Shown in pieces: positions 1-36,676 of a stretch of DNA of 64,000 nt (positions are counted from its first letter, which is position 1; each line of letters starts with the position of its first letter). The notes beneath the pieces were generated by a model. That model did not search any database and had not been told where the DNA came from. It worked only from the letters and a program-made list of their open reading frames with translations. The DNA comes from a virus: positions 1-64,000 of the IMG/VR virus record IMGVR_UViG_3300048032_000927, one strand, 5' to 3'. The translations under genes and the position numbers were made by a program.

Positions 1-2
1 CC

Positions 3-761: not shown

Positions 762-776
762 TAAGAGGATACTAAA

Positions 777-1430: not shown

Positions 1431-1458
1431 TTTTAATAAAAGAGAGGACATTAATAAC

Positions 1459-2526: not shown

Positions 2527-2550
2527 TTCGGGTGCCTTCAACATATTTGC

Positions 2551-2580
2551 AAAAAGTCCACCCATAGCGGTGGACTTTTT
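2551..2580 (+). terminator. Rho-independent terminator after the major capsid gene
   Basis: A perfect 12-bp stem (AAAAAGTCCACC / GGTGGACTTTTT) encloses a 6-base loop and ends in a run of T. It starts 24 bp after the capsid stop codon and separates the highly expressed head genes from the neck genes. Confidence 0.9.
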
Positions 2581-2629
2581 GTTTACAAAGGTTATTATAT
2601 AATTGAACAATTAGGAAAAAGGAAATATT

Positions 2630-9626: not shown

Positions 9627-11048
9627 ATGGGAAAGTCGCGAAATGTAATACAGTATAACTCAGTTGGACTATTCCTTACTGATGCCCCTGCCGCAAACCC
9701 AGAGACTGACAAAGTAAAATTTTTTAATCGTGTACAAAGTGTTGGCATATCCATCGATGTACAGAGACAAAACATAAAACATATTGGCGGCGAAGATTTT
9801 TTAGCCCGAAAGATAGTTCAAGCGCCTGATATTAATATAAATGTCGGATATTTATTGACCGACGGATACGAAGAGAATCTACTCGGATTAAATGTGGCAC
9901 CAGCACCTATCGTAGTGTCACCAAAGTACGGCGTAATAGATAATGATGAAATTCACGAGGGTACAATCTATAAAGATCTCAAAGAAGACAAGAACATGTT
10001 TATGGTTGTTGGTGATGAAGGATTTGATCTAACAGGATACGCAAAACGCCCGCAAGGATATTCTGGAACAGATGCAATTGGTATAGGTAATTGTTTTCTA
10101 ACTAATTATAATGTTAGTGCAAGCGTTGGTGGATTCGCTGAAGCATCAGTGCAAATGGTAGCATCAGATATTAATTATGCATGTATGGGTTCTGGTGAGG
10201 GTGGGTATTCATGGACCCAGCCAATCGAAGAGATATTTGGTTTATTAAGGCAGGTAGACGCATTCGATGAAGACTTTGTGTTGTTGGAGGATGGATCAAT
10301 TATTGGTCTTGGAGAAGAGTTTGGGGAAGTTAATTATGGCGGAGCCATCACTCCTTCTTTAGATTTAGCTAATAAAGGTGCCGTGATCACTGGAACTGGA
10401 TTCGTATTCAATCCAGACATGTACAATTCTGCCACTACAGCGATACATCAAGGGGGTATTAATGTTACGGTTAGAAACCTAGATATGGGCGGGCCTATAT
10501 TAAATGGAATAAATCAAGGAACATGCAACAAGGGAACCGCCAATATACAAAGCTTTGATATATCTGTTCCTTTTGATAGAGAGGATCTTCGCGGATTCGA
10601 GTCTAATAATGTATATGGCCGCAAATTAAAAAAACCGCAAATTGGAACAATAAGTTTTTCATTGTTAGCTAACGCATTTACAAGCGGAAGATTTCAGGAA
10701 TTGTTGTGCAATGATAATGACTATGAGATAGCCATTGATTTAACTAGCCAATGCAAGCTAACTTGTAGATCTAGCGACCCAAAAGACAAGTACATGAAAT
10801 TCACTGTAAATAACGCTAGATTTCAAGGTTACAGTTTTAATGAACAAGTTGGATCTTTCGCTACGGTTGATTGTTCTTTTTCTTTTGGAATGAGTTCTAA
10901 TAATGGACTCTTTGTTAGCGGGTGCTTTGAGAACGAAAGGCACAAAAAATGTGTACCATCTACTATGATGGCACCAAGAAACTTAGAGGTTGATAACGTT
11001 ACCCCGCTAGAAGATCCTATTCGTAACCTACAAATTACAGGCGCATGA
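9627..11048 (+). CDS. Tail-tube-like paralogue (minor tube / tail protein)
   Basis: This 473-residue protein is related by visible patterns to the 525-residue tube protein: RQNIKHIGG, QAPDININVGYLLTDGYEEN, GIGNCFLTNYNVSASVGG and C-terminal NGLFVSGC in the same order. It also has a comparable Cys pair region (CKLTCRSS). The level of expression should be lower because a terminator-like hairpin precedes it and no clear Shine-Dalgarno is present (start context TATATATATGG). It overlaps the next gene by ATGA. It may form a special ring at the tube end or decorate the tube. Its role beyond tail structure is unknown. Confidence 0.55.
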   Translation: MGKSRNVIQYNSVGLFLTDAPAANPETDKVKFFNRVQSVGISIDVQRQNIKHIGGEDFLARKIVQAPDININVGYLLTDGYEENLLGLNVAPAPIVVSPKYGVIDNDEIHEGTIYKDLKEDKNMFMVVGDEGFDLTGYAKRPQGYSGTDAIGIGNCFLTNYNVSASVGGFAEASVQMVASDINYACMGSGEGGYSWTQPIEEIFGLLRQVDAFDEDFVLLEDGSIIGLGEEFGEVNYGGAITPSLDLANKGAVITGTGFVFNPDMYNSATTAIHQGGINVTVRNLDMGGPILNGINQGTCNKGTANIQSFDISVPFDREDLRGFESNNVYGRKLKKPQIGTISFSLLANAFTSGRFQELLCNDNDYEIAIDLTSQCKLTCRSSDPKDKYMKFTVNNARFQGYSFNEQVGSFATVDCSFSFGMSSNNGLFVSGCFENERHKKCVPSTMMAPRNLEVDNVTPLEDPIRNLQITGA

Positions 11049-12019
11049 AAAAGAAAGCGAGATTATTGATTACTTGGGATCCACCCTTGCACCTTGAAAA
11101 CATTGATTCGATTGTGTTATTGAAAAAGAAATACGGAATTGATTGCGATGAAGTTTTGGAAAGTGGAGAATTATTGTTTGAAACAAAAAACATTTTAGAA
11201 GATAGCTATATTGACGAGTTTGATGATTTTGGGACTTTTAGATACGCGGCTTTTGCAAAAAATGCTTACGGTTATACTCCCTGCACCACCAACTATTACA
11301 CCATAGCTGCTTCGGTGCTTTGGTTTCAGTATTGCGGAGGAGACTTAGTACAGCTTTATGATTTGCAATATAGTTATCAGCCCGCACTTCAATTATGGGA
11401 AGAAATAAATGGGGATTATGTCTTAAGAGATGCTCCTTACGGATCTTCGGATGAATATGCAAAATATTTTGAATTGAATAATGATGGTGATTTGATACCT
11501 ACCGCTTTCCATAACGAAATAATCAACGACTTTGAAGTTGAGGGAAAAGACCAATACTCTTACGATTGCTCGCACATGGGTGTAGTATTAACGACTAATG
11601 CAATAAATGGAACAGCTTCTGGAGCAGGATCTTACGAATATAGAGAGATTGTTCAGCTTAACTGTTTGGCTGGCCCTCAGTACGACTTTAAAAAATGGAC
11701 AACTAATGCAGGAATAATAAGTGATAAATATTCTCAGATTACTACGATTGAGGTAACTGGAAGTGGGTATGCAACAGCAATATTTGAGCTAAAAAGAATG
11801 ACGATCCAGCTGATAGGCAATAATGTAACTCTTCAGGGAGCGGGTACATATGAACATGGTACCACTATAACAATTAGCGCTACTCCTGATTCGGGTTATC
11901 GTTTCGTCAGATGGATGGGCAATAATATACAGAACACCTTAAGTGCCACAACTACTTTATATGTAGATTATTTAGATGGAGATCAAACAATTGCAGCGAT
12001 TATTGAAAGTATCCCGTAA
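11045..12019 (+). CDS. Tail-associated protein with FN3-like and InlB-like repeats
   Basis: This 324-residue protein has a fibronectin-III-like N-terminal domain (residues about 1-90, with ITWDPP and FRYAAFAKNAYGYT). It has a middle region rich in Tyr/Gln. Two C-terminal divergent InlB B-repeats follow at about residues 175-250 and 250-324, recognised by the G-T-x-x-G-x-G-x-Y pattern, then Y-D-F-K-K-W or Y-R-F-V-R-W. These modules usually serve adhesion and are common as decorations on tail tubes. The start overlaps the preceding stop (ATGA), so it is coupled to the tube-like paralogue. No enzyme motif is seen. Confidence 0.6.
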   Translation: MKKKARLLITWDPPLHLENIDSIVLLKKKYGIDCDEVLESGELLFETKNILEDSYIDEFDDFGTFRYAAFAKNAYGYTPCTTNYYTIAASVLWFQYCGGDLVQLYDLQYSYQPALQLWEEINGDYVLRDAPYGSSDEYAKYFELNNDGDLIPTAFHNEIINDFEVEGKDQYSYDCSHMGVVLTTNAINGTASGAGSYEYREIVQLNCLAGPQYDFKKWTTNAGIISDKYSQITTIEVTGSGYATAIFELKRMTIQLIGNNVTLQGAGTYEHGTTITISATPDSGYRFVRWMGNNIQNTLSATTTLYVDYLDGDQTIAAIIESIP

Positions 12020-12082: not shown

Positions 12083-15000
12083 ATGGCAGGAATTAGGGCA
12101 GATGTTTCATTAAATGTAAACACAGCGAATGTTAAGCGTAGTCTTGACAAGGCTACTAATGAAATTAATAAAGTTGTCGGCAAGATAAGCGGCAAACCAG
12201 TAAGCTTTAATGTTAACGGAAAAAGCTTTACTCAGCCCCTGGGTAGGATTACAGCCTCCGCCAATGAGTTCACAAAATCGCTTGAGGCATCAAATGCTCG
12301 TGTTATCGCTTTCGGCGCTTCTGTTGGTATAATAAATGGAGTAAGTGATGCATTCAGGAATCTCGTACTCGAAACAATAAGGTTTGAAAAAGTACTAAGC
12401 GATATCAATGTAGTGCTAGGACTAAGCAACGAATCTATTCAGAGATTCGGTGAAGGCATCTTTGATGTCGCAATGAACACCGCTCAATCATTTAATGTGG
12501 CGGCTGATGCAGCCCTCGAGTTTTCTAGGCAAGGTCTAAGCACGGAAGAAGTGCTAAAAAGAACCAACGACGCATTAATACTTACCAGATTGACTAGTTT
12601 AAATGCAGCTGATGCGGTAGCGGGGCTTACGGCTGCCGTCAATGCGTTTGGGGACGCTGGATTGACCACAACCGATATTATTGATAAATTAGCTGCTGTA
12701 GACGTAAAATTTGCTGTTAGCTCCGAAGATTTGATTAATGGCTTACAAAGAGCTGGTGCTGTTGCCATAGATGCAGGAGTGGAGTTGGATAGCTTGGTTG
12801 GCTTAGTGGCCGCACTCCAACAAACAACGGCTCGTGGTGGTGCTGTTATTGGTAATAGTTTGAAGACCATATTTACAAGGATACAGCGGCCAGAATCGAT
12901 CCGGCAAATTGAGGATCTTGGAGTTGCTGTAAGAAACATCCAGGGCGAAGTTTTATCTGCAGATAAAATACTTTTGAATATGGCAAAGAGTTTCAATACT
13001 CTTACTCAAGCTCAACAATCTAATGTTGTGCAATTTTCCGCAGGTATATTTCAGGCTAACGTCTTTAGATCTATTCTTAGAGATTTAGCTAAAGAGCAAA
13101 GCTTGCATGCGCAAGCCACCGAAGTTTCCGCTAACGCATCCGGAGAGGCCGCTAAAAAGAATGAAATCCTGAATCAAACACTTGCAGCATTAGCATCTCA
13201 AGCTGGAACGGGAATACGAGAATTAGCAGGCATTATAGGCGAGCTTGCAGTAAAGCCTGAAATTGGAGGATTTTTAGAGTTTTTAGTTGGCCAAATTGAA
13301 GGCATCAAAAAGATGCTTGGAGGAGGAGAAGATGAAGGAAGCGCTTTCGCTAAAGGGTTAGTCCGGGGAATAGGGAATGTCTTAACTGGTCCTGCTGCGA
13401 TAGCTTTTGGAGCAGTGTTCATAAAGATGTTCCTGAATATAGCTAAGTTTGCCAGCACTTCACTAAAAGATGTTCTTGGTATTGTTAGCCAGAAAGATAG
13501 AATCAGGCAAATGGAGGAGTCAATCGTTCAAGCTTTATCAGCCAATAAAAACCTTCAGGAATCCTTAAATAATCTAGAGGGAGATAGGCTTGCTCAAGAG
13601 AAGTTCATTCTTGGAATTATTGAGGCACAAACAAGCGCCATGAGAGAGCAACAATTGCTGGCCAGTCGTTTAGCAAAACCTTTAATGAGAAAAGGCGTAA
13701 CCCCCGACTTGACAATAAAAGCTTCCGGGGGTTTAATACCTGAATCTGTAAAAAGCAAAGAAAAGCAAGGCGCAAGAAAGGGTGGTTATGCCCCAGGGTC
13801 AATAGACTCAATGAACATTCCGGGGCTTGGCCCAGTTGTTTATAATAAAGCGGAAACCGTTAAACAATTTCCTGGTATGAAGCAGCCTGCGATTATGCCT
13901 CCAAAACAAAGCAGGGCTGGAGGTGCTTACAAAAGCACTTTTAAAGAAAAACATGGCTTCGATCCTTACGCAAGCCATGGTTTTGTTCCTAATTTCGCGA
14001 TGAAAAGAGGGTCTACTCTCGTCATGGACAAAGCGAAGTTAAAAGTTTTTGGAACAGATGTAGATATAGGACGTGCGGTTAATAAAAAATATCAAGAAAT
14101 ACAAGAACATTTTCAAGCAAAAATTCCAATAAATATTGAAGCTGGACTGCAGCAGATAATAACCTCATCAACTAAAGATAAAAAACAGCCAACAGGCAGA
14201 GAGTCTTTATTCGAAAGTTTCAGCGCCTTATCGGGAGCAGGAATAAAATCAATAGAGCGACCTTTTGATATACGAAACATTGGTGCCGCTAAGTCAAGAG
14301 GCTCAAAACCAAAAGGACTCTCTCCATCTGAATTTAGTGAAAAGAAGGTAATGGGTCTACTCAAGAGAGAGCAAAGCGTTGATAAGGTAGATAAAAAAGA
14401 AGGTTATAGGCTAACGCATGATCCACAAACAAATAAAGGTCTTCCTGATTATCCTGTAGATATCATCTCATACGGCGAAAATTACCCAACCCACGAAGTT
14501 AAGAGTGGTAGTTTCAATCCAGCTAATCTCATATTCAAAAGCTTACGAATGGCTTCTGATCGAGAGTTGCCAAACTGGATGCAACAAAATAAAATAAGCG
14601 GCGGCAAAAAACTACAAGAAAGAAAACTTAAAAAAGCTGAAACCTTATCAAAGAGATTAGATTTATACGATCCCAAGCAAAAGAAAAGTGCCAAAGAAGA
14701 AGGGTTTGAATTTAGTCAAGATTTTGCGGATCAATGGGGATTAAGCCAGGGGTTTGTTCCTAATTTCAAAAAAGATTGGCGACAATTATACTCAAATACG
14801 TTAACAGGATACAAGCAGGGAAAAATAAAATCTCGAGAAGATCTTATGGGTTATTTAGGGGTTAGCCTAAGCGGCCTATCTCAACTAGTTAGCGCTTCAA
14901 GTAATTCAAATAATAAAGCGATCAGGGAACAGTTGTCCGAAGTTCAACTTGATAAATTAAGGGAGATTAATGCATCTGTTTCTGATAAGAACCAGAAAGA

Positions 15001-18000
15001 CTGGAGGAGCCTGTACTCGACTACAATATCAGCCCGAAATCAGGGAAAGATAAATTCCAGAGAAGAACTAGCGAAATCCCTTGGTGTAAGTGCAGTCGGT
15101 CTATCTCAACTAGTTAGCGCTTCAAGTAATTCAAATAATAAAGCGATCAGGGAACAGTTGTCCGAAGTTCAACTTGATAAATTAAGGGAGATAAGTAATT
15201 CTCTCTTAACTGATAAATCAGGAACATTATCCCAAACAAGATTAAAAGGTGATTTATTTGAGAAAGCTATTTCAATTCTTTCTGGGCAACCTTTCAAAAA
15301 AGGCGCAGACGCATTAGACTTTTCAAGAGCACGGGCAAGACCTGTATTAATGGATTCAAAAATTCGCGAACAAATAGATTTAGGCCAAGATGTTCGATAT
15401 GGCGATGCAGAGTCAGGAAGCGGGCACAAAGTCCATATCATGAGGGATAAAGTTATTCGCGAGTTGGAAGAAGGCGGCCAATTATATAATCTCATCCAAA
15501 AAAATGGCGATATTAATTTACCAGGAAAAACGTTCACAGATATTGTTGCTAACGGATCCGACGCTAAACCAAAAGAATCATCTACCATAAAATTAGGTGA
15601 GTTATTAAATACTGGTCGAACAACAGCTGGAACAAAAAATGCGATAGAAAAATCTTTAACAAAAAAATACAAAGGTAAAATAACTCCTGCGCAAAGACAA
15701 AAAGAATACCAAAGAAATGTTAAGTTCGATTATTATGTTGATGATGTTAATTTGGAAAACCTAAAGGTTGACAAAAGAACCAAGCTAGGAAAAGAATTGG
15801 GAGATATAGATAAACAATTTCTTGCAGTATCCGCTCAGACACAGAGTGACGGATTGGTTCCAAATTTCGCATCTCTTAGATCACCTATTAAATTTGATGT
15901 TGGCGATGAAAAAAGCTACGGAAAGTCCTATGTTGCAAGAACAGCGAAATCGGGGAAACTTTTTCTACTAGAGCAAGGCCACAAACATTTCTCTGAATAT
16001 ATGGAGTCTCAGGGTAAACCTACGCCAAAAATGACTAGAGGTGTTATTGGGGGCAGAGAAGGATATTGGGTGAACCAGCACGAAGATGATATACTAGAAT
16101 GGAGTAAAAAGCCAAACATAGAATACATTCGAAAAGAAAAAGAGGTTAAAGAGCAAAGAGAGCAGGAATCAAAAGACTATATGCAGAAGCTTAAGTATGG
16201 ATCTTTTGAGCCTATAAAAAATGCAATGCCATTAAATTTCGGGGGAGATTCGGTCAGATACCAAAGAACATCTGGTTTCGGAAAAGAGCTTATAAATAAA
16301 CTTGGGCCAGACTATAAATACATTTCAGTAAACACTAGAAAAGTAGAAGATTACGCTAAAGCTAATAATATAACCAAGCAACTTCGTTCTGGTTCTACGG
16401 TACCCAATTCCAAATCAGCCTTGCTTAAAATGGTTGACTTACCTAAGTCTAAAATTCAAGAGCTAGATTTTGTTAGGCCAAGAAAAAGAACTGAAGACGA
16501 AAAAAAAGAGGAACTAAGAGAAATTAGTCCAACAAGCCCTATCAAATGGGATGTTCGTCAAAATCCGGGAACAAAAAAGAAAGATTACTCTCTTAAGGGT
16601 AGCGACGACACCTTTAGGCACTTTAGTAATTTCTTAGAAAGAAAAGGTGTTCCCAAGAGAAGTATTCAAAATATTCAAAACGCTATACAGCAGAAAAGAG
16701 AAACTATAAAAGGCCTCGAAGAAGGAGCAAGAAAAAAAAGTCAATCCAGATCAGATAACACTGCATTTCATGAAGCAGCACTAGCGTCTGAAAATATAGA
16801 AAAAAACTTTAGTATACCAACTGATAAATTATACATTAAAAACTTATCTAATTTAATCAAAGAATTTAATAGTACAGTTTATACTGGTTTTAGTGATGGA
16901 TATGTTCCTGATTATGGTGCTGTAGAAATGAATAAAGGATATGTGCCTAATTTTATTGGTTTTAATGTACCGAAGAAGTCGCATCAATTAATTGAAACAT
17001 TTAATCAAATAACTGAAAAGAATAAACTTATTCCTACCGTTGATTCTTTGATGGAGCAAGGCGTGGATCGAGAGACTGCAATTCAGCAAACAAAAGACGA
17101 TCAATTTGGACAAAAGAAATCGATGTTTAAGATTTTGAACACGATGAAGTCCGAAGGTGTTAAGCAGCTATTTTTTGGTCAAGGCGGTAAGATATTTCCT
17201 CATCAATCTGCTGGCACTATACCATTTACAATCGAGAAGATTAAGGATGTAATTAATAACACTGGATACAAGACTGATTTCAAAGCGGATGGATTTGTGC
17301 CCAACTATGCAGTTACTTTATCAGATGATAATTATTATAGCCAGAAAAACGTACAACATGGTATAACTCAACTTTATAAAAAGAGTGGTGGACGACAAAA
17401 ATTAGCCCCGAAAGAATTAGAGTTTGCGTCTGAAAGATATATATCGGCAGTTCAAGACAGTGGAAAAACTTATCCTGGCGGAAACTTTAACGTCGGTGGT
17501 AAGAAGTTCAACTTTAATGAAGTCAGTATGTCATTAATGAAGCATGGTCAGTTTTATCAACCCAAAGAAGGTGAAGCTGTAGATTTATCGGAAGGGTTTG
17601 CTGGAGGCTATGTTCCTAATTTTGCCGACTCTCAAAAGATCCGAAATGGAGCTATTTACCACAGCAAAACAAACAACAAAGCTGTTAGAGTAAAAAGAGC
17701 AGATCAAGCAGAGCGTATTGCATACATTAAGCATCACACTCAGGATCACATGTTTGACCCCGAAGTTCCGTTTTCTGATTTAACGCCTGCCACTAAAAAA
17801 CAAGTTCAGGAATATCTTGGTAGGTCACCAACTAAAGCTAAGGGTTTCGTTCCTAATTTTGCCGACACTACTCTTTATAGAGGTCAGGGCCGCCCAACTT
17901 TGGACACGCCAGACATACTGAGTAATCTTCCGAGTTTTAGTGGCGCTGAAACGCCAGAAGATGTTGTCGGTATTATTCAAAATTTTGTTAAATCTCATGT

Positions 18001-21000
18001 CAGCGGCGAATTGTCGGGACAAAGAAATAAACCTAATCCCGCCAAAAAAGCATCTGGTGCAGTTTCTTTTTCTACAAATGATACAATAGCTAGAGAATTT
18101 TCCGGACTAGGCACAATTAGAAGAAAAGCCACAAATCCAGACGGTAAAGTCTTTGAAAAGAAGGTTCCTCAGAAAAATATATTCAATAAGCGAAAATTAC
18201 TTAAAATTTTAAGTAGAGGCGCCGACCTCGAGAATAATGTTTATCCGAAGGTACAGGAATTTAAGCAGGCAATTTCATCAGGGGCGATACAAAACTGGGC
18301 CCAGGAAAACGGCGGAATTTTCTTAAACGTTTCAGGCGCATATAATGACAAAGAAGCTTACGGAAAAATGGGCAAGATGGAATATGGAAGATTTGAGCAT
18401 AAATTCTTGGGCAAAAGAATGCCTTCAATTGTACCTCCGAAAGAAATTGGTTTTAATAAAAATAAAACATTTGAAATCACCCCAAGAGAAGAAGAGGTTA
18501 TGCAGGTATTTGATGATGGCCTTGTTCCTAACTTCGCAGACCCTCAAAAGATTCGAAATGGCGCCATATATAATAGTAAAACCAATAACAAAGCCGTAAG
18601 AGTTGTTCGGGCAAATCAAGCAGAAAGAATAGCGTATATCAAGCATCATTCTCAGGATCACATGTTTGACCCCGAAGTTCCGTTTTCCGATCTAACGCCC
18701 GCGACAAAGAAACAAGTTCAGGAATATTTAGGCAAGAAACCTAAGGCTAAAGCAAAAGGCTTTGTTCCTAATTATGCATTGACAGGAAAAGAATATGCTA
18801 AGTTTTCAGTTAGTTTGTCTGATTTTGTAAGAAATAATTCTATTACGCCGCCGATAAAATCTCTAAGTAGCCGTGAAATATTTAAAATTCCCCGCAGAAA
18901 TGCAGAGGTTGCAGAACAAACTATTCAAAATATCAGGCAATTTATTTCATCTAATGAATTTGGGGATCTTGACGAAGATATCAGAAGACAGGTCAAGAAA
19001 GATTATAATAGAATTGCACCGAGAGGATTATCAAACCCATTTAGACCATTCGCCAAATATTCTCAAAAAGAATTTAGCGGAAGCATGGATGTAGGGCGCC
19101 CAACATTAAGAAGGGCTGTTGCTAAGGGATTTGTTCCTAATTTCGCAAGCCCGCTAAAAGAAGCTATAAAAAGAGAAAAAGCTGCAGGGGTTCCTGTTTC
19201 AAGTATTCGCGTAGAAAAAAGCCCGCAACTTAAAAGCTCCAAAAATCCAATGGGATTAGCGGTTACTAACACCAGGGATGAGCCTCTTGGTGTTGGCCAA
19301 GGGATTAGACGCGCAAGAAGTATGGGTATTGACCCTAAAAAACATGGGGCCTCAAAAGGGTTAGTGCCTAACTTTGCGGCTGGCATAAAGAATATACAAT
19401 TCAAAGAAGGCGTTCCAGATGCTGTAAAAAAAGCATACAATGAAAGCGCAAAGCATTTAAATAGTTTTAATAAAAACATCGAAACAGCTAGTGATGCATC
19501 CGGCAAAAGGGCTGAAGCAGATAGTAACGCTAGTAATAAAACCGATGATTTTTCAAGCGGAGGCTTGATGAAGCTTTTTGTTTTTCAGTCATTACTGAGT
19601 ACGGCTAATGGGTTCTTGCAGGAATTTGCAGAGAGTGGCGGTGAAACGGCTAAAACATTTGCTCAAATTGGTCAAGCTGGATCTAATTTAATTTCAACTT
19701 TACTGACTACGAAGGAGGTCGGCAACCAATTGATGGAAATGGCTAACATCAAGCCTTCTCAATCTGTGGGGCTAGGTGGGCTAATCCGAGGGGGTGGAGC
19801 TAGGCGTGGGGCAACTAAAGAAATAGCAGGAGGCCTTAAAGCAGCCATAGATTTCAAGGGGGTAAAAAACGCAACTGGAGCAATTTCTAGTTTTGGAAAA
19901 GGATTGTCAATGGCAGGCAAAGGTTTACTGAGATTCACACCAATAGTTGGACAATTACTTCTTTTGGGTACCGGATTAAACGAGGTAATGAAAATGATTA
20001 CGGGTAAGGGTTTGTTTGATTTACTGAAAAGTGACGCAGATAAAGCTGCTGATAAATTAAAAGAATTGGCTGAGGCTGCAGATAAGACAGAAAACGCTCT
20101 TAATGGAGCAAATAAACTACAGAGCACTCAAGAGAAAATCACAGAATTAAAAATTTTAGGTGACTCAAGAAGCCTCAAGCAAGAAAAAGAACTCTGGTCT
20201 TTAAAAACACAAGAAATAAAAAACAGAAATGAGTTAAAGAAATCTATATCAGAAGTTGATACGTCGTATATTCAAAACGAAAGTTTAATACAAAAAATCA
20301 ATCAAGTCAAGGCAGGGGAAATAACAAAAACTGAAGACGTTATTAAGGTTTTAACAGAATACTCTTTCGCCCAACAAGGTCAGATGGGAATCCAAGCTAG
20401 TTCCGAAAGATTCTTTAAGAGTATAGAAGACGTAAAAAGAACTCAAAAAGAAAAGATTGTTACGCCAAAAATGCTTAGCGGAATTCAAGTTGGAGAAACG
20501 GTTGAAAATACAGGTAGAAATATTTTATCAGAAGAATTTAAAAATAAAATAAATGAATCCGCCGCAGATATCGCACAGTCAATTTTAATGCTTAGCCCTA
20601 AACAGCAAGAGTCTGCGAAAAAATCTCTAAAAGAAGGGGAAGTCGGAAAAATTAGAGGGCTGGAAGGATTTGATGAATTAGGTAAAGTAGAGAAAAAATT
20701 TATATCTAGAAAAATATTAGAGTTTACAAAGAAAAAAGGCGCAGAAGGAGAAAAAAATGATGAGGAAGCTAAAGCAGAGGCTGGAGCAAGAGATGAACTG
20801 ATCAAAAGACTATTCTTAATTAAGCAAGGCAGGCAACAAGAAGCTTTAAATCTAAAATTAAGCAACAAGCGGAATGAATTATACCGCAGCCAAAACGCTT
20901 TTCTTCATGGTATACTCTCCGAGTATGAAGGCATTAACGTTGCCGCTAAAATTGAAGCCGATGCAGCCAGAAAAACCGCAAAAATAAGATCTGATTATAA

Positions 21001-24000
21001 CGAAAAACTGTTAGGCGTTAATCAAAAATTAATTCAAGGCACAGAAGGGATACTTGAAGGCGTGATTGGCGAAGGAGGCGCAAGCGCAAGTAGAGTCTTT
21101 GGTGCGGCTGGTGACCCTAATTCTAGCCCCGTACAATTCACTGAAAAGAGCGGTAAAGATTTAGGGCTAAATCAGGAGAAAGTTAAATTAGCTAATAAAA
21201 TTCTACAAGAATCCTCAAAGCAGGCAAGTGCTGCCTCTCAATCAAGGAAATTTTTCGAGGAATTAAATAAAGCAAAAGATGAAGAGTTATACATTGCTAC
21301 GGCTAAGTTGTTTTTTGATCAAGAAAACTTGCAAATCAGTCAAAAGGAGAAAAACAAACTTCAAGAGCTTATTAATACTCGAGATAAGACGCGAGCAATA
21401 CTTGAGCAAGACAACGAAATAGCTTTAGAAAATGTAAATCAAGAAAGAACAAGAAGTTTAATTTCAAAGAAAACAACAGAGGGTGCAATTGCATTGCAAG
21501 AAATTCTAAGTCAAGGAATACCTTATGCTCAAACAGCTATAACTGCAATGGAAGGTAATGCTGCCACGCTCAAGGTTTTAAATAATTTCAGAGGCGCTGA
21601 AATAGAAACAATACTGCAAAGTGCAGCATTACAAGCTGAAGCCACACAATTGCAAAAAGAAAAAAATAGAAATGACCTTATAGCTGTTACTAAGTCTGCC
21701 GCGCAGGCTAAAGCTCAAGCCGAAGTATTTTCCAAAACAGAACAATATGCTCAAATTATTCAAAAAAGACTTGAGCAGGAGATATCTCAATCCGAGATAG
21801 CTGCAAGAGATGCTCAATTAAAAAATGAATTCTATAATATTGAAAGTAATAGGCTTGCTTTAGTTAAAAGTCAATTACAATCTGAAATAGATAATTTAAA
21901 TACTGATAACTTAATTAAGCAATCTAGATTGGAGTTGTTAACTCAGTATGGAAAAATTAATGAATTGGTGGCTGGGCAGATTCAACAAAGCAGATTGCAA
22001 GCGACTACTGATTTAGCTACATCTATTGAAACGGCGCAACAAACAGGAACACCTGAGTCAATGGTTGATGTAGCCGAAAAGATGTCTGCCCTTAATAGAG
22101 AGATGAACACGGGCAGTAGAGCTATGGACGCTCTTAGAGAAAGGCTCGCAGAGGCGCAAGTCAATGCCGCGAACCTCGGGGCAGATTTAGTAAACATTGG
22201 ATTCGATCAAGCAAAGAGTGGATTAAAGCAATTATTTAAAGATATTGGAAGTGGTGCAAAGAGCGCAAGTGAGGCGTGGGAAAGCTTCGGACTGAATATA
22301 GCAGACAGCCTTCTCGATAGAATCATGGAGCATAATATAGACAAAATGATGTCTAATCTATCAGTTGCTTTTACTGGGCAGGATTTACTGGCAGACGCAA
22401 ATCAGAGGCTTGCTGCTACCATACCAACACTTAAGACATCAAATGATACGCTCAACACAACAACTGGAGCATTAAACACAAGCATGGGAACCTTGAATAC
22501 ATCTGTTCAAGGATTAACCACAGCGATAGGAAGCATCAACTTAAATCCTGGTCAGCCTACAGTCGATGTAACTATTCCATCAACTCCAGCTCAAGGTCCA
22601 GCCGCATCCGCCCCGGTAGAAAAGTTTTTGGGAGGCAAAATACAAGCGTTCAATAAAGGAGGCTTTGTTAAAGGTGAACCGGGGATTGACAGGGTTCCAG
22701 CTATGCTGACAGCAGGCGAGTATGTTTTAAACAAAGAACAAGTAAACGAAGTTCAAAAACAAGGGCCATCAACGACTGTATCGAAACCAGATCAGTTTTT
22801 CATGGAAAGCCCGAAGCAAATTTCGAAAAACATTGCCCCGAAAAAGACATTCGAAGATAATATCACAGGTAAGCTCAAACTATTCAAGGGTGGCGTAGTC
22901 CAAATGTTTCAGGATGGCGGTTTAGCTAATAAAAAAATAGACAAGGGAGTTTTTGATGTAGAGAAAAGAATTATTGATAAAAAGCAGGTTCAAGAAATAC
23001 AAAATAAAGAGGTTTTAAATGTCAAGCAAAGCCCAGTACAAGAACTATCCATTAACACTGCAAAGATATCAAATATGGTTTCACCTGAAAAAGCTTTAAA
23101 GGGCAGTAAGGAACTCGGGGATATTAAAAAATTTTACGGCGGGAAAATACAAAAATTTGAAGAAGGAGGAATCGCTAAAAGGGTTAAAGCTGGAGCCAAA
23201 GGAGCTGCACAATTTGCAGTAATGACTGGGGTTAGTAGTGTTCTATCAAAAAAGTTAAATAAAAAGCAAGATAATCCACCACCAAAATTTGATATGCGTA
23301 AGCTTGAGAACTTGGATTTAGGTTCTGATGTTAATATCAAAAGAGGCGACCCAAGATTAAGTGCTAGATTTATTGCGGAAGATCCAGTGATGCAGGAGTA
23401 CAGGGATCATTTGCTTGAACTAGCTACTTATAGGGCTCAAAAAACCAACGAAAAATTTAGAGAAAAACAAGGTACTCTTGCTTCTGTTATGGGAGCGGTC
23501 ATGAGTTTTGCTGTCTCACAATTAGTTTCCGCCGCCGCTAAACCATTGCAAAAAAGCATACAAAAAGGTAAAAACTTTATGGGTAAAACCATGGGTCAGC
23601 ATAAAGATGCCTACAAGAATGCAATGAGTATACCTGGCGGTAAAGACTTAAATTACAGCCAAGTTAGTAAATCAATAAAATCAGGAAAGCCTATCGATAT
23701 TGGTGGAAAAGAATATACCTATCAAAATGGATCATGGCTTAATCCAGTAAAGAAACAAGGCGGAGGCTCGATACCAGCAATGCTTACAGCAGGGGAAGGC
23801 TTCGTCCCGGCTCCTATTGCAAGAAGGATTGGCTACGGTAATTTAAATAAAATGAACCAAACGGGATCCCTTCCTATAATCAATGGACCAGCAGGCATTG
23901 ATAAGGTTGGACCAGTTGGATTAAATGAAGGAGATTTTATAATCAAAAAATCATCAACGGATAAACTACTAAGAGAGAATCCGAATATGATGAAATTCGC

Positions 24001-24379
24001 ATTACAAAACCCAGAAGGTTTCAAGAAGGGAGAAAGAGGATACTATGAAGGTGGGGTAGTAGGTACAGCGACACGCGCTGCGCCTGTTGCATCAAAAACA
24101 TACAAACCTCAATCTGCGCCAGAGCAAAGAAACCGCATAAGTTCATTGATTGAAGAAGTAGATCAAACTAAAGCTCAAGAAAGCGCACAATCCACAAGTA
24201 ATTCAGTAACTAATAATATCAATGTTAATGTAAGCATTGATAAATCTGGCAATGAGTCAGTATCAACAGAACAAACGGGATCTAGCCTGGAGCAGGAAAA
24301 AGATCTAAGCATGAAGATCAAGGCAAAAGTTCTGGAAGTTATCAGGGATGAAAAGAGAATTGGCGGAGAGCTTAGTTAA
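12083..24379 (+). CDS. Giant tape measure protein with embedded enzyme-like modules
   Basis: The product has 4,098 residues. Residues about 35-330 carry the TP901-type tape measure core (phage minor tail family). Hydrophobic segments lie near 430-460 and about 2,620-2,640. Residues 633-2432 hold twelve G-[FYL]-V-P-[ND]-[FY] motifs at 633, 890, 1257, 1606, 1619, 1737, 1842, 1921, 2146, 2226, 2349 and 2426. They separate unlike blocks: a PD-(D/E)XK-like module (D793, E805-x-K807), a tandem repeat (about 895-1040), a second PD-(D/E)XK-like module (E1060, D1079, D1091-x-K1093) and an ADP-ribosyltransferase-like block (R1933, S1997-T1998, E2136/E2138). Coiled coils follow to about residue 3,400. 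The C terminus carries several IDRVPAMLTAGEYVLNK-type repeats known from tape measures. The protein sets tail length and is normally ejected with the DNA. Enzyme roles are inferred from motifs only. Confidence 0.9.
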   Translation: MAGIRADVSLNVNTANVKRSLDKATNEINKVVGKISGKPVSFNVNGKSFTQPLGRITASANEFTKSLEASNARVIAFGASVGIINGVSDAFRNLVLETIRFEKVLSDINVVLGLSNESIQRFGEGIFDVAMNTAQSFNVAADAALEFSRQGLSTEEVLKRTNDALILTRLTSLNAADAVAGLTAAVNAFGDAGLTTTDIIDKLAAVDVKFAVSSEDLINGLQRAGAVAIDAGVELDSLVGLVAALQQTTARGGAVIGNSLKTIFTRIQRPESIRQIEDLGVAVRNIQGEVLSADKILLNMAKSFNTLTQAQQSNVVQFSAGIFQANVFRSILRDLAKEQSLHAQATEVSANASGEAAKKNEILNQTLAALASQAGTGIRELAGIIGELAVKPEIGGFLEFLVGQIEGIKKMLGGGEDEGSAFAKGLVRGIGNVLTGPAAIAFGAVFIKMFLNIAKFASTSLKDVLGIVSQKDRIRQMEESIVQALSANKNLQESLNNLEGDRLAQEKFILGIIEAQTSAMREQQLLASRLAKPLMRKGVTPDLTIKASGGLIPESVKSKEKQGARKGGYAPGSIDSMNIPGLGPVVYNKAETVKQFPGMKQPAIMPPKQSRAGGAYKSTFKEKHGFDPYASHGFVPNFAMKRGSTLVMDKAKLKVFGTDVDIGRAVNKKYQEIQEHFQAKIPINIEAGLQQIITSSTKDKKQPTGRESLFESFSALSGAGIKSIERPFDIRNIGAAKSRGSKPKGLSPSEFSEKKVMGLLKREQSVDKVDKKEGYRLTHDPQTNKGLPDYPVDIISYGENYPTHEVKSGSFNPANLIFKSLRMASDRELPNWMQQNKISGGKKLQERKLKKAETLSKRLDLYDPKQKKSAKEEGFEFSQDFADQWGLSQGFVPNFKKDWRQLYSNTLTGYKQGKIKSREDLMGYLGVSLSGLSQLVSASSNSNNKAIREQLSEVQLDKLREINASVSDKNQKDWRSLYSTTISARNQGKINSREELAKSLGVSAVGLSQLVSASSNSNNKAIREQLSEVQLDKLREISNSLLTDKSGTLSQTRLKGDLFEKAISILSGQPFKKGADALDFSRARARPVLMDSKIREQIDLGQDVRYGDAESGSGHKVHIMRDKVIRELEEGGQLYNLIQKNGDINLPGKTFTDIVANGSDAKPKESSTIKLGELLNTGRTTAGTKNAIEKSLTKKYKGKITPAQRQKEYQRNVKFDYYVDDVNLENLKVDKRTKLGKELGDIDKQFLAVSAQTQSDGLVPNFASLRSPIKFDVGDEKSYGKSYVARTAKSGKLFLLEQGHKHFSEYMESQGKPTPKMTRGVIGGREGYWVNQHEDDILEWSKKPNIEYIRKEKEVKEQREQESKDYMQKLKYGSFEPIKNAMPLNFGGDSVRYQRTSGFGKELINKLGPDYKYISVNTRKVEDYAKANNITKQLRSGSTVPNSKSALLKMVDLPKSKIQELDFVRPRKRTEDEKKEELREISPTSPIKWDVRQNPGTKKKDYSLKGSDDTFRHFSNFLERKGVPKRSIQNIQNAIQQKRETIKGLEEGARKKSQSRSDNTAFHEAALASENIEKNFSIPTDKLYIKNLSNLIKEFNSTVYTGFSDGYVPDYGAVEMNKGYVPNFIGFNVPKKSHQLIETFNQITEKNKLIPTVDSLMEQGVDRETAIQQTKDDQFGQKKSMFKILNTMKSEGVKQLFFGQGGKIFPHQSAGTIPFTIEKIKDVINNTGYKTDFKADGFVPNYAVTLSDDNYYSQKNVQHGITQLYKKSGGRQKLAPKELEFASERYISAVQDSGKTYPGGNFNVGGKKFNFNEVSMSLMKHGQFYQPKEGEAVDLSEGFAGGYVPNFADSQKIRNGAIYHSKTNNKAVRVKRADQAERIAYIKHHTQDHMFDPEVPFSDLTPATKKQVQEYLGRSPTKAKGFVPNFADTTLYRGQGRPTLDTPDILSNLPSFSGAETPEDVVGIIQNFVKSHVSGELSGQRNKPNPAKKASGAVSFSTNDTIAREFSGLGTIRRKATNPDGKVFEKKVPQKNIFNKRKLLKILSRGADLENNVYPKVQEFKQAISSGAIQNWAQENGGIFLNVSGAYNDKEAYGKMGKMEYGRFEHKFLGKRMPSIVPPKEIGFNKNKTFEITPREEEVMQVFDDGLVPNFADPQKIRNGAIYNSKTNNKAVRVVRANQAERIAYIKHHSQDHMFDPEVPFSDLTPATKKQVQEYLGKKPKAKAKGFVPNYALTGKEYAKFSVSLSDFVRNNSITPPIKSLSSREIFKIPRRNAEVAEQTIQNIRQFISSNEFGDLDEDIRRQVKKDYNRIAPRGLSNPFRPFAKYSQKEFSGSMDVGRPTLRRAVAKGFVPNFASPLKEAIKREKAAGVPVSSIRVEKSPQLKSSKNPMGLAVTNTRDEPLGVGQGIRRARSMGIDPKKHGASKGLVPNFAAGIKNIQFKEGVPDAVKKAYNESAKHLNSFNKNIETASDASGKRAEADSNASNKTDDFSSGGLMKLFVFQSLLSTANGFLQEFAESGGETAKTFAQIGQAGSNLISTLLTTKEVGNQLMEMANIKPSQSVGLGGLIRGGGARRGATKEIAGGLKAAIDFKGVKNATGAISSFGKGLSMAGKGLLRFTPIVGQLLLLGTGLNEVMKMITGKGLFDLLKSDADKAADKLKELAEAADKTENALNGANKLQSTQEKITELKILGDSRSLKQEKELWSLKTQEIKNRNELKKSISEVDTSYIQNESLIQKINQVKAGEITKTEDVIKVLTEYSFAQQGQMGIQASSERFFKSIEDVKRTQKEKIVTPKMLSGIQVGETVENTGRNILSEEFKNKINESAADIAQSILMLSPKQQESAKKSLKEGEVGKIRGLEGFDELGKVEKKFISRKILEFTKKKGAEGEKNDEEAKAEAGARDELIKRLFLIKQGRQQEALNLKLSNKRNELYRSQNAFLHGILSEYEGINVAAKIEADAARKTAKIRSDYNEKLLGVNQKLIQGTEGILEGVIGEGGASASRVFGAAGDPNSSPVQFTEKSGKDLGLNQEKVKLANKILQESSKQASAASQSRKFFEELNKAKDEELYIATAKLFFDQENLQISQKEKNKLQELINTRDKTRAILEQDNEIALENVNQERTRSLISKKTTEGAIALQEILSQGIPYAQTAITAMEGNAATLKVLNNFRGAEIETILQSAALQAEATQLQKEKNRNDLIAVTKSAAQAKAQAEVFSKTEQYAQIIQKRLEQEISQSEIAARDAQLKNEFYNIESNRLALVKSQLQSEIDNLNTDNLIKQSRLELLTQYGKINELVAGQIQQSRLQATTDLATSIETAQQTGTPESMVDVAEKMSALNREMNTGSRAMDALRERLAEAQVNAANLGADLVNIGFDQAKSGLKQLFKDIGSGAKSASEAWESFGLNIADSLLDRIMEHNIDKMMSNLSVAFTGQDLLADANQRLAATIPTLKTSNDTLNTTTGALNTSMGTLNTSVQGLTTAIGSINLNPGQPTVDVTIPSTPAQGPAASAPVEKFLGGKIQAFNKGGFVKGEPGIDRVPAMLTAGEYVLNKEQVNEVQKQGPSTTVSKPDQFFMESPKQISKNIAPKKTFEDNITGKLKLFKGGVVQMFQDGGLANKKIDKGVFDVEKRIIDKKQVQEIQNKEVLNVKQSPVQELSINTAKISNMVSPEKALKGSKELGDIKKFYGGKIQKFEEGGIAKRVKAGAKGAAQFAVMTGVSSVLSKKLNKKQDNPPPKFDMRKLENLDLGSDVNIKRGDPRLSARFIAEDPVMQEYRDHLLELATYRAQKTNEKFREKQGTLASVMGAVMSFAVSQLVSAAAKPLQKSIQKGKNFMGKTMGQHKDAYKNAMSIPGGKDLNYSQVSKSIKSGKPIDIGGKEYTYQNGSWLNPVKKQGGGSIPAMLTAGEGFVPAPIARRIGYGNLNKMNQTGSLPIINGPAGIDKVGPVGLNEGDFIIKKSSTDKLLRENPNMMKFALQNPEGFKKGERGYYEGGVVGTATRAAPVASKTYKPQSAPEQRNRISSLIEEVDQTKAQESAQSTSNSVTNNINVNVSIDKSGNESVSTEQTGSSLEQEKDLSMKIKAKVLEVIRDEKRIGGELS
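14876..14967 (+). repeat. 92-bp exact direct repeat, copy 1 (inside tape measure gene)
   Basis: It is identical base for base with 15101-15192, offset 225 bp (75 codons), and forms the most conserved part of a tandem duplicated protein segment (SQLVSASSNSNNKAIREQLS and following). Confidence 0.9.
15101..15192 (+). repeat. 92-bp exact direct repeat, copy 2 (inside tape measure gene)
   Basis: This is the second copy of the repeat at 14876-14967. Codons flanking the exact block are diverged at both nucleotide and protein level, so the identity points to recent duplication or gene conversion. Confidence 0.9.
17628..17842 (+). repeat. Duplicated protein module copy 1, before the ADP-ribosyltransferase-like block
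   Basis: This codes about 70 residues running from QKIRNGAIY through HMFDPEVPFSDL to VQEYLG and ends at a VPNF motif. It recurs at 18541-18757 with most residues identical but many silent base changes. Confidence 0.85.
18541..18757 (+). repeat. Duplicated protein module copy 2, after the ADP-ribosyltransferase-like block
   Basis: This is the second copy of the module at 17628-17842. The two copies bracket the block with the R-S-E motifs, and each is followed by a VPNF/VPNY motif. Confidence 0.85.
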
Positions 24380-25392: not shown

Positions 25393-26597
25393 AGAAGCCT
25401 TTTTTTAGATATGAAGACGTGCCACTAATATTGGCTCGGGGGGATGAAAGAGCTGCTGCAATCTTTGCGAACAGCGCGAGTATATCTGTAGATCAATCAT
25501 TATCGGTGAAGAAAACTGTTGATGATTATAATATATCTTTCGCTTTGCAAACTGGGGATGTGTATTTTCCAGAGGCTCAAGAATCGGGATTCCTTATGGG
25601 GCCTGTTGATGGGCCGGCAATAAAAGCTCAAGAATCAATAGAGGTAATAAAAAGTGGCTCAAGAATATCATACCCAAATGGAGCTTCTTTGTATTTAACC
25701 GAAGATCTATTACCTGGAGATTATTATGTTAATGTTCGCTCTACCGGCGAAACTTTATTAAGGAAAGATGAAGACGTTCCATATGGAGAAGTTGAGGTTT
25801 TAAGAAATTATGCGGCAAATGATATAGCAAGAGGGACACTAAACATCAGTTACTACATGAACACGGGAAATCTAGAATCTTTTTCTGATGTAACTGGATT
25901 GATGGATTTGCAAAGCTATCCACATACTGATGAAGGAAAGATAACAGGCTCCTTGGGAGATTATATGTTTTATGACGCATATATTAAAGAAGTTAGCTTT
26001 TCGGCGCAACCTTTTCAGCCAATTCAAACAAATGTAACTCTTGACATATACGGGGCACTTGATGTAAAGGAGGGCCTTTCCGAAGAAATTATAGAGAATT
26101 ATGGATGTTATGGGTATATTCTTCCTCCACAAAAAAATATACCACATGCAATGAATACTAAAATAGTTGGGTCAGAATCTGCAGGGATGAAGTATCCACT
26201 TAGTTTTAGTTATAAAATAACTGCAGAACGAAAACCTGAGGTATATTTACCCATAAGTGGCAGATATGATACTGGAGGAGAAATTCCAGATAGAGTCACA
26301 AAAGAAGATATAGAGGTCGTTATAGAACTTGCAGGAGAGAGACTCGATCCGCATTTAAAACTTGACGGTCAAAGAGCTGATGTATCAATAAAATTATCAG
26401 ATTTAGGTTTTGATCCAGAATATACGGATAATAACGCTGGGTCAATGAAGGAATTTAAATTATTAAGAGATCCAAACGATAGGCAACCATACGCAACACC
26501 TTATCAAGCTTATGGTGTCATCGAATCAAATAAATTAACAATATCTGATCAAGGCTATCTACAGGGATCTGTGACAATAAGGCAATCTTATAGATAA
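25389..26597 (+). CDS. Distal tail protein, second tail-tube-like paralogue
   Basis: This 402-residue beta-rich protein shows the tail-tube-like strand block in weaker form (MFYDAYIKEVSFSAQPFQP followed by TNVTLDIYG). A C-terminal region has ITAERKPEVYLPISGRYD and many charged strands. It starts within the previous stop (ATGA) and ends overlapping the next start (TAATG), so it belongs to the coupled tail-tip operon. It likely builds part of the baseplate or hub. The specific role is unknown. Confidence 0.5.
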   Translation: MKKPFFRYEDVPLILARGDERAAAIFANSASISVDQSLSVKKTVDDYNISFALQTGDVYFPEAQESGFLMGPVDGPAIKAQESIEVIKSGSRISYPNGASLYLTEDLLPGDYYVNVRSTGETLLRKDEDVPYGEVEVLRNYAANDIARGTLNISYYMNTGNLESFSDVTGLMDLQSYPHTDEGKITGSLGDYMFYDAYIKEVSFSAQPFQPIQTNVTLDIYGALDVKEGLSEEIIENYGCYGYILPPQKNIPHAMNTKIVGSESAGMKYPLSFSYKITAERKPEVYLPISGRYDTGGEIPDRVTKEDIEVVIELAGERLDPHLKLDGQRADVSIKLSDLGFDPEYTDNNAGSMKEFKLLRDPNDRQPYATPYQAYGVIESNKLTISDQGYLQGSVTIRQSYR

Positions 26598-34940: not shown

Positions 34941-35964
34941 AAAAGAACATGTGCAAACTCTTTTTGAGCTGGACCCTTCGGCTATAATATCTTTGTACCA
35001 GATAGATCTAAAGGAAAAAGGAAAGTATTTGTTTCATGCTGGAGAAAATGGATATAAAAATAAAATAATATTTAACTCTCAAGCTTACGATTTTTTTCCT
35101 ATTCAAGCGGAAGGCTTCGAGATTAAAGGCGATGGCAGGCTTCCTAGGCCAACACTCACATTATCTAATCATGGCGGAGTGATATCAATGCGCTTGAATT
35201 ATTTCAAAGACTTTATTAATTACAAGGTTACAAGAATCAAAACGTTTGTTAAATATTTAGACAACGCAAACTTTCCGAACAATTTAAACCCACACTCAGA
35301 GCCGGATCCTGATGCAGCATTCGAGCAGGATGTTTTCTTTATTAATCAGAAGACCAAAGAAGATGATAACATTGTAGAGTTTGAGTTGGTTTCATTATTG
35401 GAGTTACAAAACGCAAACACTCCAAATAGAACAGTATATTCAAACCACTGCCCCTGGCAATATAGGGGTGACATAGGATGCGGGTACAAAGGAAAGCCTA
35501 TAGCTGACGAAAAAAATGTAAGATTTGTTCCCAGTGGCTACAATGGAGCAATGGTTGGTGAAGAAGTTTACTTTGGCTCTGAATTTGGATCAACAGAATT
35601 TGCACCTTTGAACTCTAATGAATCTTATAATGATTGGAATGTAAATTCTACATACAATAAAGGAGACGTTGTTAAGATTGTACCATTCGATTACGATTCA
35701 TCTTTAAATCCAGTCGCAATTTACGTATGCATCAAAGACGCAGTAAAGTCAAACCCTATATTTGATAGAGAAAGTTGGCGGCTAGATGAATGTGACAGAA
35801 CTTTATGTGGTTGCAGGCTTAGATTTTCAGATCCAGCCACAGGCGCAGGAGGAGGATTGCGTATATCTGATAACGCAAATAGCCAAGATGCTTTTTGGAC
35901 AGAATCAGAAGAGGGTTTACCGTTTGGAGGATTTCCTGGAGTTGATCCTTATGACTTCAAGTAA
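34933..35964 (+). CDS. Minor tail protein L homologue (Fe-S tail tip protein)
   Basis: This 343-residue protein has the gpL-type layout: an N-terminal beta domain (EHVQTLFELDPSA, FNSQAYDFFPIQAEGFEIKG, GRLPRPTLTLSN) and a C-terminal Cys region. Cysteines in NHCPWQYRGDIGCGYKG and ECDRTLCGCRLRF correspond in order and approximate spacing to the four cysteines of lambda gpL that bind an iron-sulfur cluster. An insertion of about 75 residues separates the two Cys pairs and carries a possible carbohydrate-binding segment (YNDWNVNSTYNKGDVV, like chitin-binding type 3 domains). The protein joins the tail tip to the central fibre. It overlaps both neighbours. Confidence 0.85.
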   Translation: MIKKEHVQTLFELDPSAIISLYQIDLKEKGKYLFHAGENGYKNKIIFNSQAYDFFPIQAEGFEIKGDGRLPRPTLTLSNHGGVISMRLNYFKDFINYKVTRIKTFVKYLDNANFPNNLNPHSEPDPDAAFEQDVFFINQKTKEDDNIVEFELVSLLELQNANTPNRTVYSNHCPWQYRGDIGCGYKGKPIADEKNVRFVPSGYNGAMVGEEVYFGSEFGSTEFAPLNSNESYNDWNVNSTYNKGDVVKIVPFDYDSSLNPVAIYVCIKDAVKSNPIFDRESWRLDECDRTLCGCRLRFSDPATGAGGGLRISDNANSQDAFWTESEEGLPFGGFPGVDPYDFK

Positions 35965-36676
35965 TTTCTGCGACAAAATTATAACTCACGCCAAATCTAA
36001 TAATCAAGAAGAGGTTTGTGGATTAATTGTTTTAAATCAAGATTTAACTATTTCAGTTGAGCCGATGATCAATGAACATTCAAGCCCAGACAAATGTTTC
36101 TCAATGTCGGCGGCCAAATTCATCAATTTTAAAATAAACAAAACGATATTAGGTGTTTATCATTCTCACCCTAATCACAATGAAGAACCATCAGAGCACG
36201 ATATTAATACTTGTGAAGAATTAGGTATACCTTATTTGATTTACAGCTTAGTTACTGATAAATTTTTTCTTTATTGCCCCGAATCTTATGAGCCTGAAGA
36301 TCTTATAGGAAGACCTTACGTCGAAGGATTCTACGAATGCACCTCTATCTTCCGCGACTACTTTCACCTAAAACTAAACAAAAACATATCAACCTATAAT
36401 AAAAACTACTGGCTACCAAAAGAAGATAAAAAAGCTAATGATTTATTGTACAATGTATTAGATAAGTATTTTAATAAAGTCAGCGACCAAGATATTAAAA
36501 AGCATGATATATTAGTGTTTCAATTAAAAGAATCTAAAAGATGTCATGTCGGGGTCTATTTAGGTAATGATTATTTCATTCATCAGCCATCAAAAGCACT
36601 ATCATGCAATCAAATGCTAGACGAAAGATGGCAAAGCAAAATAAAAGAAACCTACCGCCACCATTCTTTGGTGTAA
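35951..36676 (+). CDS. gpK-like tail assembly protein: JAMM peptidase plus NlpC/P60
   Basis: The product is 241 residues from the ATG at 35951; a longer frame starting at 35786 lies entirely inside gpL and is unlikely. The N-terminal JAMM/Mov34 metallopeptidase carries E at EEVCGL and the metal motif HSHPNHNEEPSEHD (H-x-H, S-x-x-D). The C-terminal NlpC/P60-type domain has Cys in FYECTSIFRDY and His in RCHVGVYLG, followed by HQPSK. This domain order is that of lambda gpK, which is needed at the tail tip and may cut peptidoglycan during entry. It overlaps gpL by 14 bp. All expected catalytic residues appear present. Confidence 0.85.
   Translation: MTSSNFCDKIITHAKSNNQEEVCGLIVLNQDLTISVEPMINEHSSPDKCFSMSAAKFINFKINKTILGVYHSHPNHNEEPSEHDINTCEELGIPYLIYSLVTDKFFLYCPESYEPEDLIGRPYVEGFYECTSIFRDYFHLKLNKNISTYNKNYWLPKEDKKANDLLYNVLDKYFNKVSDQDIKKHDILVFQLKESKRCHVGVYLGNDYFIHQPSKALSCNQMLDERWQSKIKETYRHHSLV

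Follow-up and report, generated by a model that had tools for sequence, protein, structure and literature searches.

Tape measure proteins (TMPs) act as rulers of phage tail length, are packed in the tail and exit the virion through it at infection. Phages and conjugative elements encode polyvalent proteins, which gather many unrelated enzymatic domains (such as ADP-ribosyltransferases (ARTs), nucleases and ParB-like domains) in one polypeptide and for which injection along with the DNA has been proposed (Iyer et al. 2017, PMC5512222); GNAT domains are also found among them (PMC7824862). In polymorphic toxin systems, a constant carrier is combined with variable domains exchanged by recombination (PMC3482391), and the Sle1/Tme effectors of bacterial contractile injection systems derive from TMPs and place interchangeable domains on a TMP-like carrier packed in the tail tube (PMC13277306). 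Here we describe a locus that shares features with all of these. It lies in a stretch of 64,000 nucleotides (hereafter, the window), taken from a virus record of 115,245 bases (IMGVR_UViG_3300048032_000927), and encodes the 4098-residue TMP of a marine phage. We propose, with a probability of roughly two in three, that the centre of this protein is an array of interchangeable, enzyme-like effector cassettes held between conserved cores, with a short VPNF-type motif as the junction at which each module starts.

A tape measure protein with twelve copies of a short motif

The identity of the protein is supported by a match to PF10145 (PhageMin_Tail) at residues 121–316 (E=6.7e-25; 88.6 bits versus a cut-off of 33.2) and by matches to PHROG TMP families, the best at 1.8e-49. 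Downstream are lambda M-, L-, K- and J-like genes, which places the TMP in a siphovirus tail module. As an earlier sequence-only reading had reported, its centre contains exactly 12 copies of G[FYL]VP[ND][FY] (residues 633–2431, positions 13979–19375; Table 1), usually followed by A (9/12). The pattern was absent from 300 shuffles of the TMP and from every other frame of the window. The motif defined in that reading is real and was drawn too short: across 571 unique contexts, and also when junctions were weighted by 106 left-hand block families, the consensus extends to [SAN]-x-G-[FLY]-[VI]-P-N-[FY]-A. Because V and I are interchangeable at position 3, the strict pattern undercounts motifs in relatives.

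Conservation of the motif is at the level of the protein. Third-position codon usage in 589 motif instances approximates the background of the same genes, which indicates selection on the peptide and not on the DNA. Furthermore, its G, P and N are invariant even in block families that are only 20–30% identical. The literature search found no description of the motif and none linking TMPs with VPNF, in line with the earlier statement that no described function was known for it, and among the papers listed for the motif peptide strings none concerns phage. Open reading frames (ORFs) with a single motif, including DNA-polymerase-like and terminase-like ones named by eye, were set aside as chance matches.

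To retrieve relatives blind to the motif, we searched IMG/VR with the N-terminal core (N-core) only, represented by its first 506 residues. A single-sequence scan gave 11 loci and an alignment-based scan 25, 22 of them true homologues. Every TMP homologue retrieved in this way has the motif in several copies, counting those with I at position 3, and the first copy lies near residue 631–656, where the N-core ends; the exception is L024, a locus truncated at its N-terminal end. The 506-residue segment is 57–77% identical across 21 IMG/VR homologues. One more homologue was identified in a contig of a Flavobacteriaceae metagenome-assembled genome, which hints at the host group. The block that closes the array (F03) retrieved 143 IMG/VR loci (80 kept), the DNA pattern for GFVPNFA was present in at least 119 stretches, and PF10145 was detected in 10/10 distant multi-motif ORFs tested. 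Since these wider sets were gathered via the motif or F03, only the N-core-retrieved set provides independent evidence for the motif. In all, 191 ORF records, not dereplicated and with some contigs present more than once, contained 719 blocks, which reduce to 505 distinct sequences, 107 cassette families and 89 architectures.

The VPNF motif is absent from six TMPs with a related core that come from cultured phages, no cultured phage in INPHARED has the array blocks, and whole-TMP searches for cultured phages recovered the N-terminal TMP core only, among the matches listed. A prophage search for the closing block in 301 Flavobacteriaceae genomes found none and gave no positive control. Many TMPs of ~2000–2400 residues (L108 and L065–L106) have an apparent minimal form consisting of N-core, F03-type block, one cargo block, short F03 and C-terminal core (C-core); the cargo block belongs to family B001 and has a GxxFE...D...DxK pattern.

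Cassettes are exchanged whole at the motif

The TMP centre is modular. We cut the window's TMP and its 22 relatives at the motif and clustered the pieces into block families, in whose alignments the first position is the motif G and the last is the residue just ahead of the following motif. TMPs are usually ordered as N-core, a cassette of family F00, a variable middle, the 77-residue F03 and the C-core. The same cassette can occupy different positions. For example, residues 1921–2145 of the window's TMP correspond to residues 1333–1556 of L010, and residues 633–889 to residues 1225–1479 of L011. Cassette 6 is found motif-to-motif in L006, L010, L013 and L024, and the family of ART-like cassettes has 11 different families as left and 10 as right neighbours. 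When whole TMPs were compared by local BLAST alignment, 298 alignments resulted in starts of which 51% fall within 5 residues of a motif in both proteins, a value that is an effect size and not a p-value because the aligned pairs share ancestry and the trials are not independent. When motif positions were circularly shifted 500 times, a mean of 0.3% and a maximum of 3% of starts lay near a motif in both.

Close relatives (90–99% DNA identity) differ by the gain, loss or replacement of a single cassette. The DNA of L016 and L018 is 98.5% identical up to residue 1357 and 96.8% identical beyond one extra L018 cassette, which has 152 residues and a HAD signature and whose junctions lie within the motif. 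Between L016 and L017, the differences are whole cassettes, and identity resumes at the F03 motif. From L014 to L015, a 334-residue cassette is replaced by a 203-residue SNase cassette, and 99% identity resumes exactly at the next motif. Thus, blocks behave as units in gain, loss, replacement and movement, with breakpoints at the motif, which strongly supports the earlier proposal that the motifs are joining points for modules. The assertion that the blocks have no similarity to each other did not stand: those at residues 1842–1920 and 2146–2225 are 89% identical, and block 2 opens with tandem copies of ~70 residues. A 439-residue cassette (family B044) in L048:2344-3660 has an apparent internal duplication that starts at a near-motif, GFMPNFA.

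The regions that flank the array are conserved. The C-core of the window's TMP is homologous along its full length to those of L004, L005 and L009, and the 300 residues after the last motif cluster together across 16 TMPs. In L029–L032, the array measures 938, 1127, 1279 and 1755 residues and the rest of the protein 2713–2754 residues. The constant length of the remainder suggests that the array probably lies outside the ruler.

Some sequences at the array edges resemble the closing block, which is its most conserved and most widespread element (Table 1) and has a nearly invariant NPxGLAVTNTRDEP stretch. The end of the N-core (13733–13978) contains an apparent degenerate copy of F03 (GGLIPES...GPVVYNKAETV; compare 19127–19357), and two related elements may therefore bracket the array. 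Relatives have full F03-type copies at both array ends, both of which are similar to the C-core element VPAMLTAGEYVLN.

Enzyme-like domains in the array

Several cassette families in relatives are recognizable enzyme domains. The SNase family B009, found in relatives only, matches a PDB thermonuclease profile (E=1.3e-10) and retains the catalytic D/R/D/E/R residues; three of its members score above the cut-off for PF00565. A GNAT acetyltransferase cassette also scores above cut-off. At the level of signatures, cassettes of relatives show the HAD phosphatase motifs I–IV (DxDxT...TAR...K...DD) and the P-loop sequence GPSGSGKT, and nuclease-like signatures are present in 147/191 ORF records. The suggestion that some blocks are enzyme-like is therefore borne out in relatives, and the window's own cassettes stay at the level of residue patterns. 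Two further cassettes (L045:8927-9478 and L021:13286-14479) have ART/PARP-like HGT and ParB-like GNHR patterns by eye and no Pfam match.

Cassette 1 of the window has the pattern E121...D161...E173-x-K175, in which the E, the D and the ExK are conserved in family alignments; D-x-[IVF]...ExK is present in 28/32 distinct family members. Its AlphaFold2 model has a mean predicted local distance difference test score (pLDDT) of 81.4 and a predicted template modelling score (pTM) of 0.77, and the ten-residue stretches that hold the motifs score ~59 and ~32. A confident domain between low-confidence motifs is as expected for a separate domain on flexible, motif-bearing linkers. The model also speaks against the idea that the motif belongs to one continuous fold, at least for the one block modelled well, as cassette 1 is predicted to fold alone. 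Foldseek found no significant match to the model in PDB or BFVD, and hence no restriction-endonuclease-like fold. Cassette 8 has the pattern YRG...SFST...E-x-E, with RG plus ExE[VI] in 14/15 distinct members; comparisons with known ARTs gave no PDB profile or Pfam match, and its model is poor (mean pLDDT 47). Scans of the window's cassettes against Pfam, PHROGs, PADLOC and PDB profiles returned almost nothing beyond the tandem repeats of cassette 2 (14750–15300), which match PF07022 above cut-off (E=1.4e-4) and are helix-turn-helix (HTH)-like. Without a profile or fold match for their enzyme calls, we do not file the window's cassettes as members of enzyme families. A prediction of three cassettes together, made from a shallow alignment, was poor, and no conclusions were drawn from it.

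Most cassette pairs tested have a ratio of nonsynonymous to synonymous substitution rates (dN/dS) of ~0.04–0.45, which indicates purifying selection.

A model for the array and its alternatives

The exchangeable enzyme types in the array are directed at DNA, NAD and phosphate, which together with the ejection of TMPs suggests that the cassettes are cargo. Each cassette starts with the extended consensus, and cassettes are gained, lost, duplicated and exchanged whole. In the model that we favour, the TMP, which leaves the virion via the tail, would carry the modules toward or into the cell, where, as effectors that act early, they may target host or competing DNA or host factors. The motif would serve as a standard linker or recognition element that lets modules be added without disturbing their neighbours. 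A tail or assembly partner might dock onto it, or cleavage at it might release the modules. The array, the motif and its conservation as a peptide, cassette exchange, purifying selection on most cassettes tested and the SNase and GNAT domains of relatives are observed here; catalysis by the cassettes and a reader of the motif are inferred, as is delivery, which the earlier reading had suggested and which TMP biology and the domain repertoire would lead one to expect.

Several points weigh against this model. The enzyme calls for the window's cassettes come from residue patterns and neither fold was confirmed; fold evidence is weak, with no significant match for cassette 1 and a poor model for the ART-like cassette. 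The wider motif set was partly gathered by the motif itself, and the shared ancestry of the aligned TMPs limits what their breakpoints can carry. Family B004 and one B021 pair have dN/dS of ~0.7–1.2, consistent with relaxed or diversifying selection. Last, folded modules of ~25 kDa would have to pass through the tail lumen.

The best surviving alternative, which we nevertheless consider unlikely, is that the motif is a protease site and the TMP a polyprotein, cut at each motif at maturation or ejection into separate mature proteins. The strict consensus of 8–10 residues, with its invariant G, P and N and a small residue at position -2, does look like a recognition sequence, and in the only reliable model the motifs fall at module boundaries predicted with low confidence. 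A lambda-gpK-like tail protein with JAB and NlpC/P60 domains is encoded nearby and is the only peptidase-type candidate noticed for motif processing. However, S78, ClpP and S49 proteases were not found in the 115-kb record (which may be incomplete; the S77 search gave no control signal), and a dozen cuts would separate the N- and C-cores of the ruler unless they were made at or after ejection.

It is rather improbable that the motif is an assembly or docking element, for a tail-assembly chaperone or the tube lumen, and that the modules serve chiefly as spacers to make the ruler longer, their likeness to enzymes being incidental or inherited from co-opted domains. The established role of TMPs as length rulers and the conservation of the motif as a peptide, independent of neighbouring sequence, would fit such a function. 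But near-identical phages have arrays whose lengths are up to 817 residues apart with no compensation elsewhere, and catalytic patterns are conserved in the SNase, HAD, PD-(D/E)XK-like and ART-like cassettes. The irregular spacing of the motifs is also ill-suited to a regular chaperone coat.

We give little credence to the idea that the motif works as DNA, as a hotspot of recombination or a target of homing, and that the modules are selfish nucleases that invade the TMP gene. Arrays often carry nuclease-like signatures, junctions fall within motif DNA and homing endonuclease genes (HEGs) that interrupt TMP genes have been described (PMC10448857). Yet the codon choice of the motif matches the genome background, and we reject the idea of a DNA site on that ground. 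The modules are in frame in one ORF, and non-nuclease modules (HAD, GNAT and ART-like) behave alike. Inteins and homing insertions of that kind start with C, S or T and end with HN, unlike these blocks, which start with G and have variable ends. Last, it is hardly credible that this is an unremarkable TMP whose insertions are decayed or neutral and whose motif copies spread by duplication and lack function, even though the B004 and B021 modules evolve fast and the two F08 copies are near-identical duplicates, as the motif is invariant where the attached blocks are only 20–30% identical and the dN/dS of most cassettes, well below 0.5, already contradicts neutrality.

A broader version of the cargo model, to which we would assign somewhat less than an even chance, is that the TMPs of uncultured phages represent an undescribed and widespread tail-borne effector system, in which the TMP is a customizable carrier and several effectors at once are plugged in via a dedicated VPNF peptide, read by a specific docking protein or protease that places or frees each effector inside the infected cell. 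If so, TMPs would be a general and evolvable platform that carries many early-acting enzymes, beyond their roles as ruler and DNA conduit, and the motif would be a sequence handle for such cargo in uncultured phages. This could explain phage TMPs that are far longer than a ruler needs. It would also raise the questions of which factor recognizes the motif, how modules that are folded get through so narrow a tube and how the enzymes affect the DNA of the host or of rivals.

Features of the window and neighbouring genes

The coordinates of the TMP, its cores, cassettes and motifs are collected in Table 1.

Table 1. Positions in the window of the TMP, its parts and the nearby candidate peptidase; residues are those of the TMP, given as the first residue for motifs.
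Feature	Position	Strand	Residues	Remarks
TMP carrying the array	12083..24379	+	1-4098	4098 residues; PF10145 and PHROG tape measure families
Conserved N-core	12083..13978	+	1-632	Upstream of array; 0 motifs
Cassette 1	13979..14749	+	633-889	Family F00/B002; usual first cassette; PD-(D/E)XK-like pattern
Cassette 2	14750..15850	+	890-1256	Family F04/B004; two tandem ~70-residue repeats (HTH-like) and GxxFE...DF...D module
Cassette 3	15851..16897	+	1257-1605	Family B019, 4 members
Spacer	16898..16936	+		13 residues, GYVPDYGAVEMNK, between motifs 4 and 5
Cassette 5	16937..17290	+	1619-1736	Singleton family B056
Cassette 6	17291..17605	+	1737-1841	Family F09/B015
Cassette 7	17606..17842	+	1842-1920	Family F08/B014
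Cassette 8	17843..18517	+	1921-2145	Family F05/B005; ART-like R-S-E pattern
Cassette 9	18518..18757	+	2146-2225	Second copy of F08/B014
Cassette 10	18758..19126	+	2226-2348	Family B010, 10 members
Closing block	19127..19357	+	2349-2425	F03/B000; 77 residues; most conserved, most widespread block
C-core	19358..24379	+	2426-4098	Includes VPAMLTAGEY-type elements
Motif 1, GFVPNF	13979..13996	+	633	
Motif 2, GFVPNF	14750..14767	+	890	
Motif 3, GLVPNF	15851..15868	+	1257	
Motif 4, GYVPDY	16898..16915	+	1606	
Motif 5, GYVPNF	16937..16954	+	1619	
Motif 6, GFVPNY	17291..17308	+	1737	
Motif 7, GYVPNF	17606..17623	+	1842	
Motif 8, GFVPNF	17843..17860	+	1921	
Motif 9, GLVPNF	18518..18535	+	2146	
Motif 10, GFVPNY	18758..18775	+	2226	
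Motif 11, GFVPNF	19127..19144	+	2349	
Motif 12, GLVPNF	19358..19375	+	2426	Opens C-core
Lambda-gpK-like tail protein	35786..36676	+		JAB and NlpC/P60 domains; PF14464 E=1.3e-15, PF00877 E=3.7e-11

Other genes in the window were noted in passing. Two genes upstream of the TMP (3011–3778 and 11045–12019) have InlB B-repeat domains (PF18998) at their ends. Downstream, a protein of 1736 residues (26597–31807) combines a lambda M-like minor tail domain with a VWA-like region. In the run of minus-strand genes that follows the tail module, 46354–48276 encodes a glycosyltransferase-like protein (phrog_2170, E=3.6e-16).

Comparison with known systems

Polyvalent proteins, with many unrelated enzymatic domains in one chain, are the closest described system in content. 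A domain mix of this type is suggested for the array by SNase and GNAT domains and HAD, P-loop and ART-like patterns in relatives and by residue patterns in the window itself. The differences are in the carrier, which here is a TMP (PMC5512222 makes no mention of tape measure proteins), and in the single repeated junction peptide that separates the modules. The invasion of TMP genes by HEGs is a different phenomenon (PMC10448857).

Polymorphic toxin systems are closest in their mode of exchange. They vary one C-terminal toxin, whereas the window's array comprises several internal, motif-led cassettes between two constant cores. A variable C-terminal toxin was not found, as the cassettes are internal and followed by the conserved C-core.

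TMPs with peptidoglycan-hydrolase domains carry cell-wall enzymes for entry, unlike the array described here. For example, the TMP of Bacillus phage Stills has enzymatic domains (annotated LysM and lysozyme) and an N-terminal TMP core related to that of the window. To our knowledge, none of these proteins has a cassette array. The TMP of TM4 is an example with a peptidoglycan-hydrolase domain, as cited in PMC13277306.

Closest in carrier are the TMP-derived Sle1/Tme effectors. These have a single C-terminal domain and belong to a bacterial contractile system, and neither an internal array nor such a motif was found in the passages of PMC13277306 consulted. Each ingredient of the locus has precedent, and their combination in one TMP is, as far as our searches reach, new.

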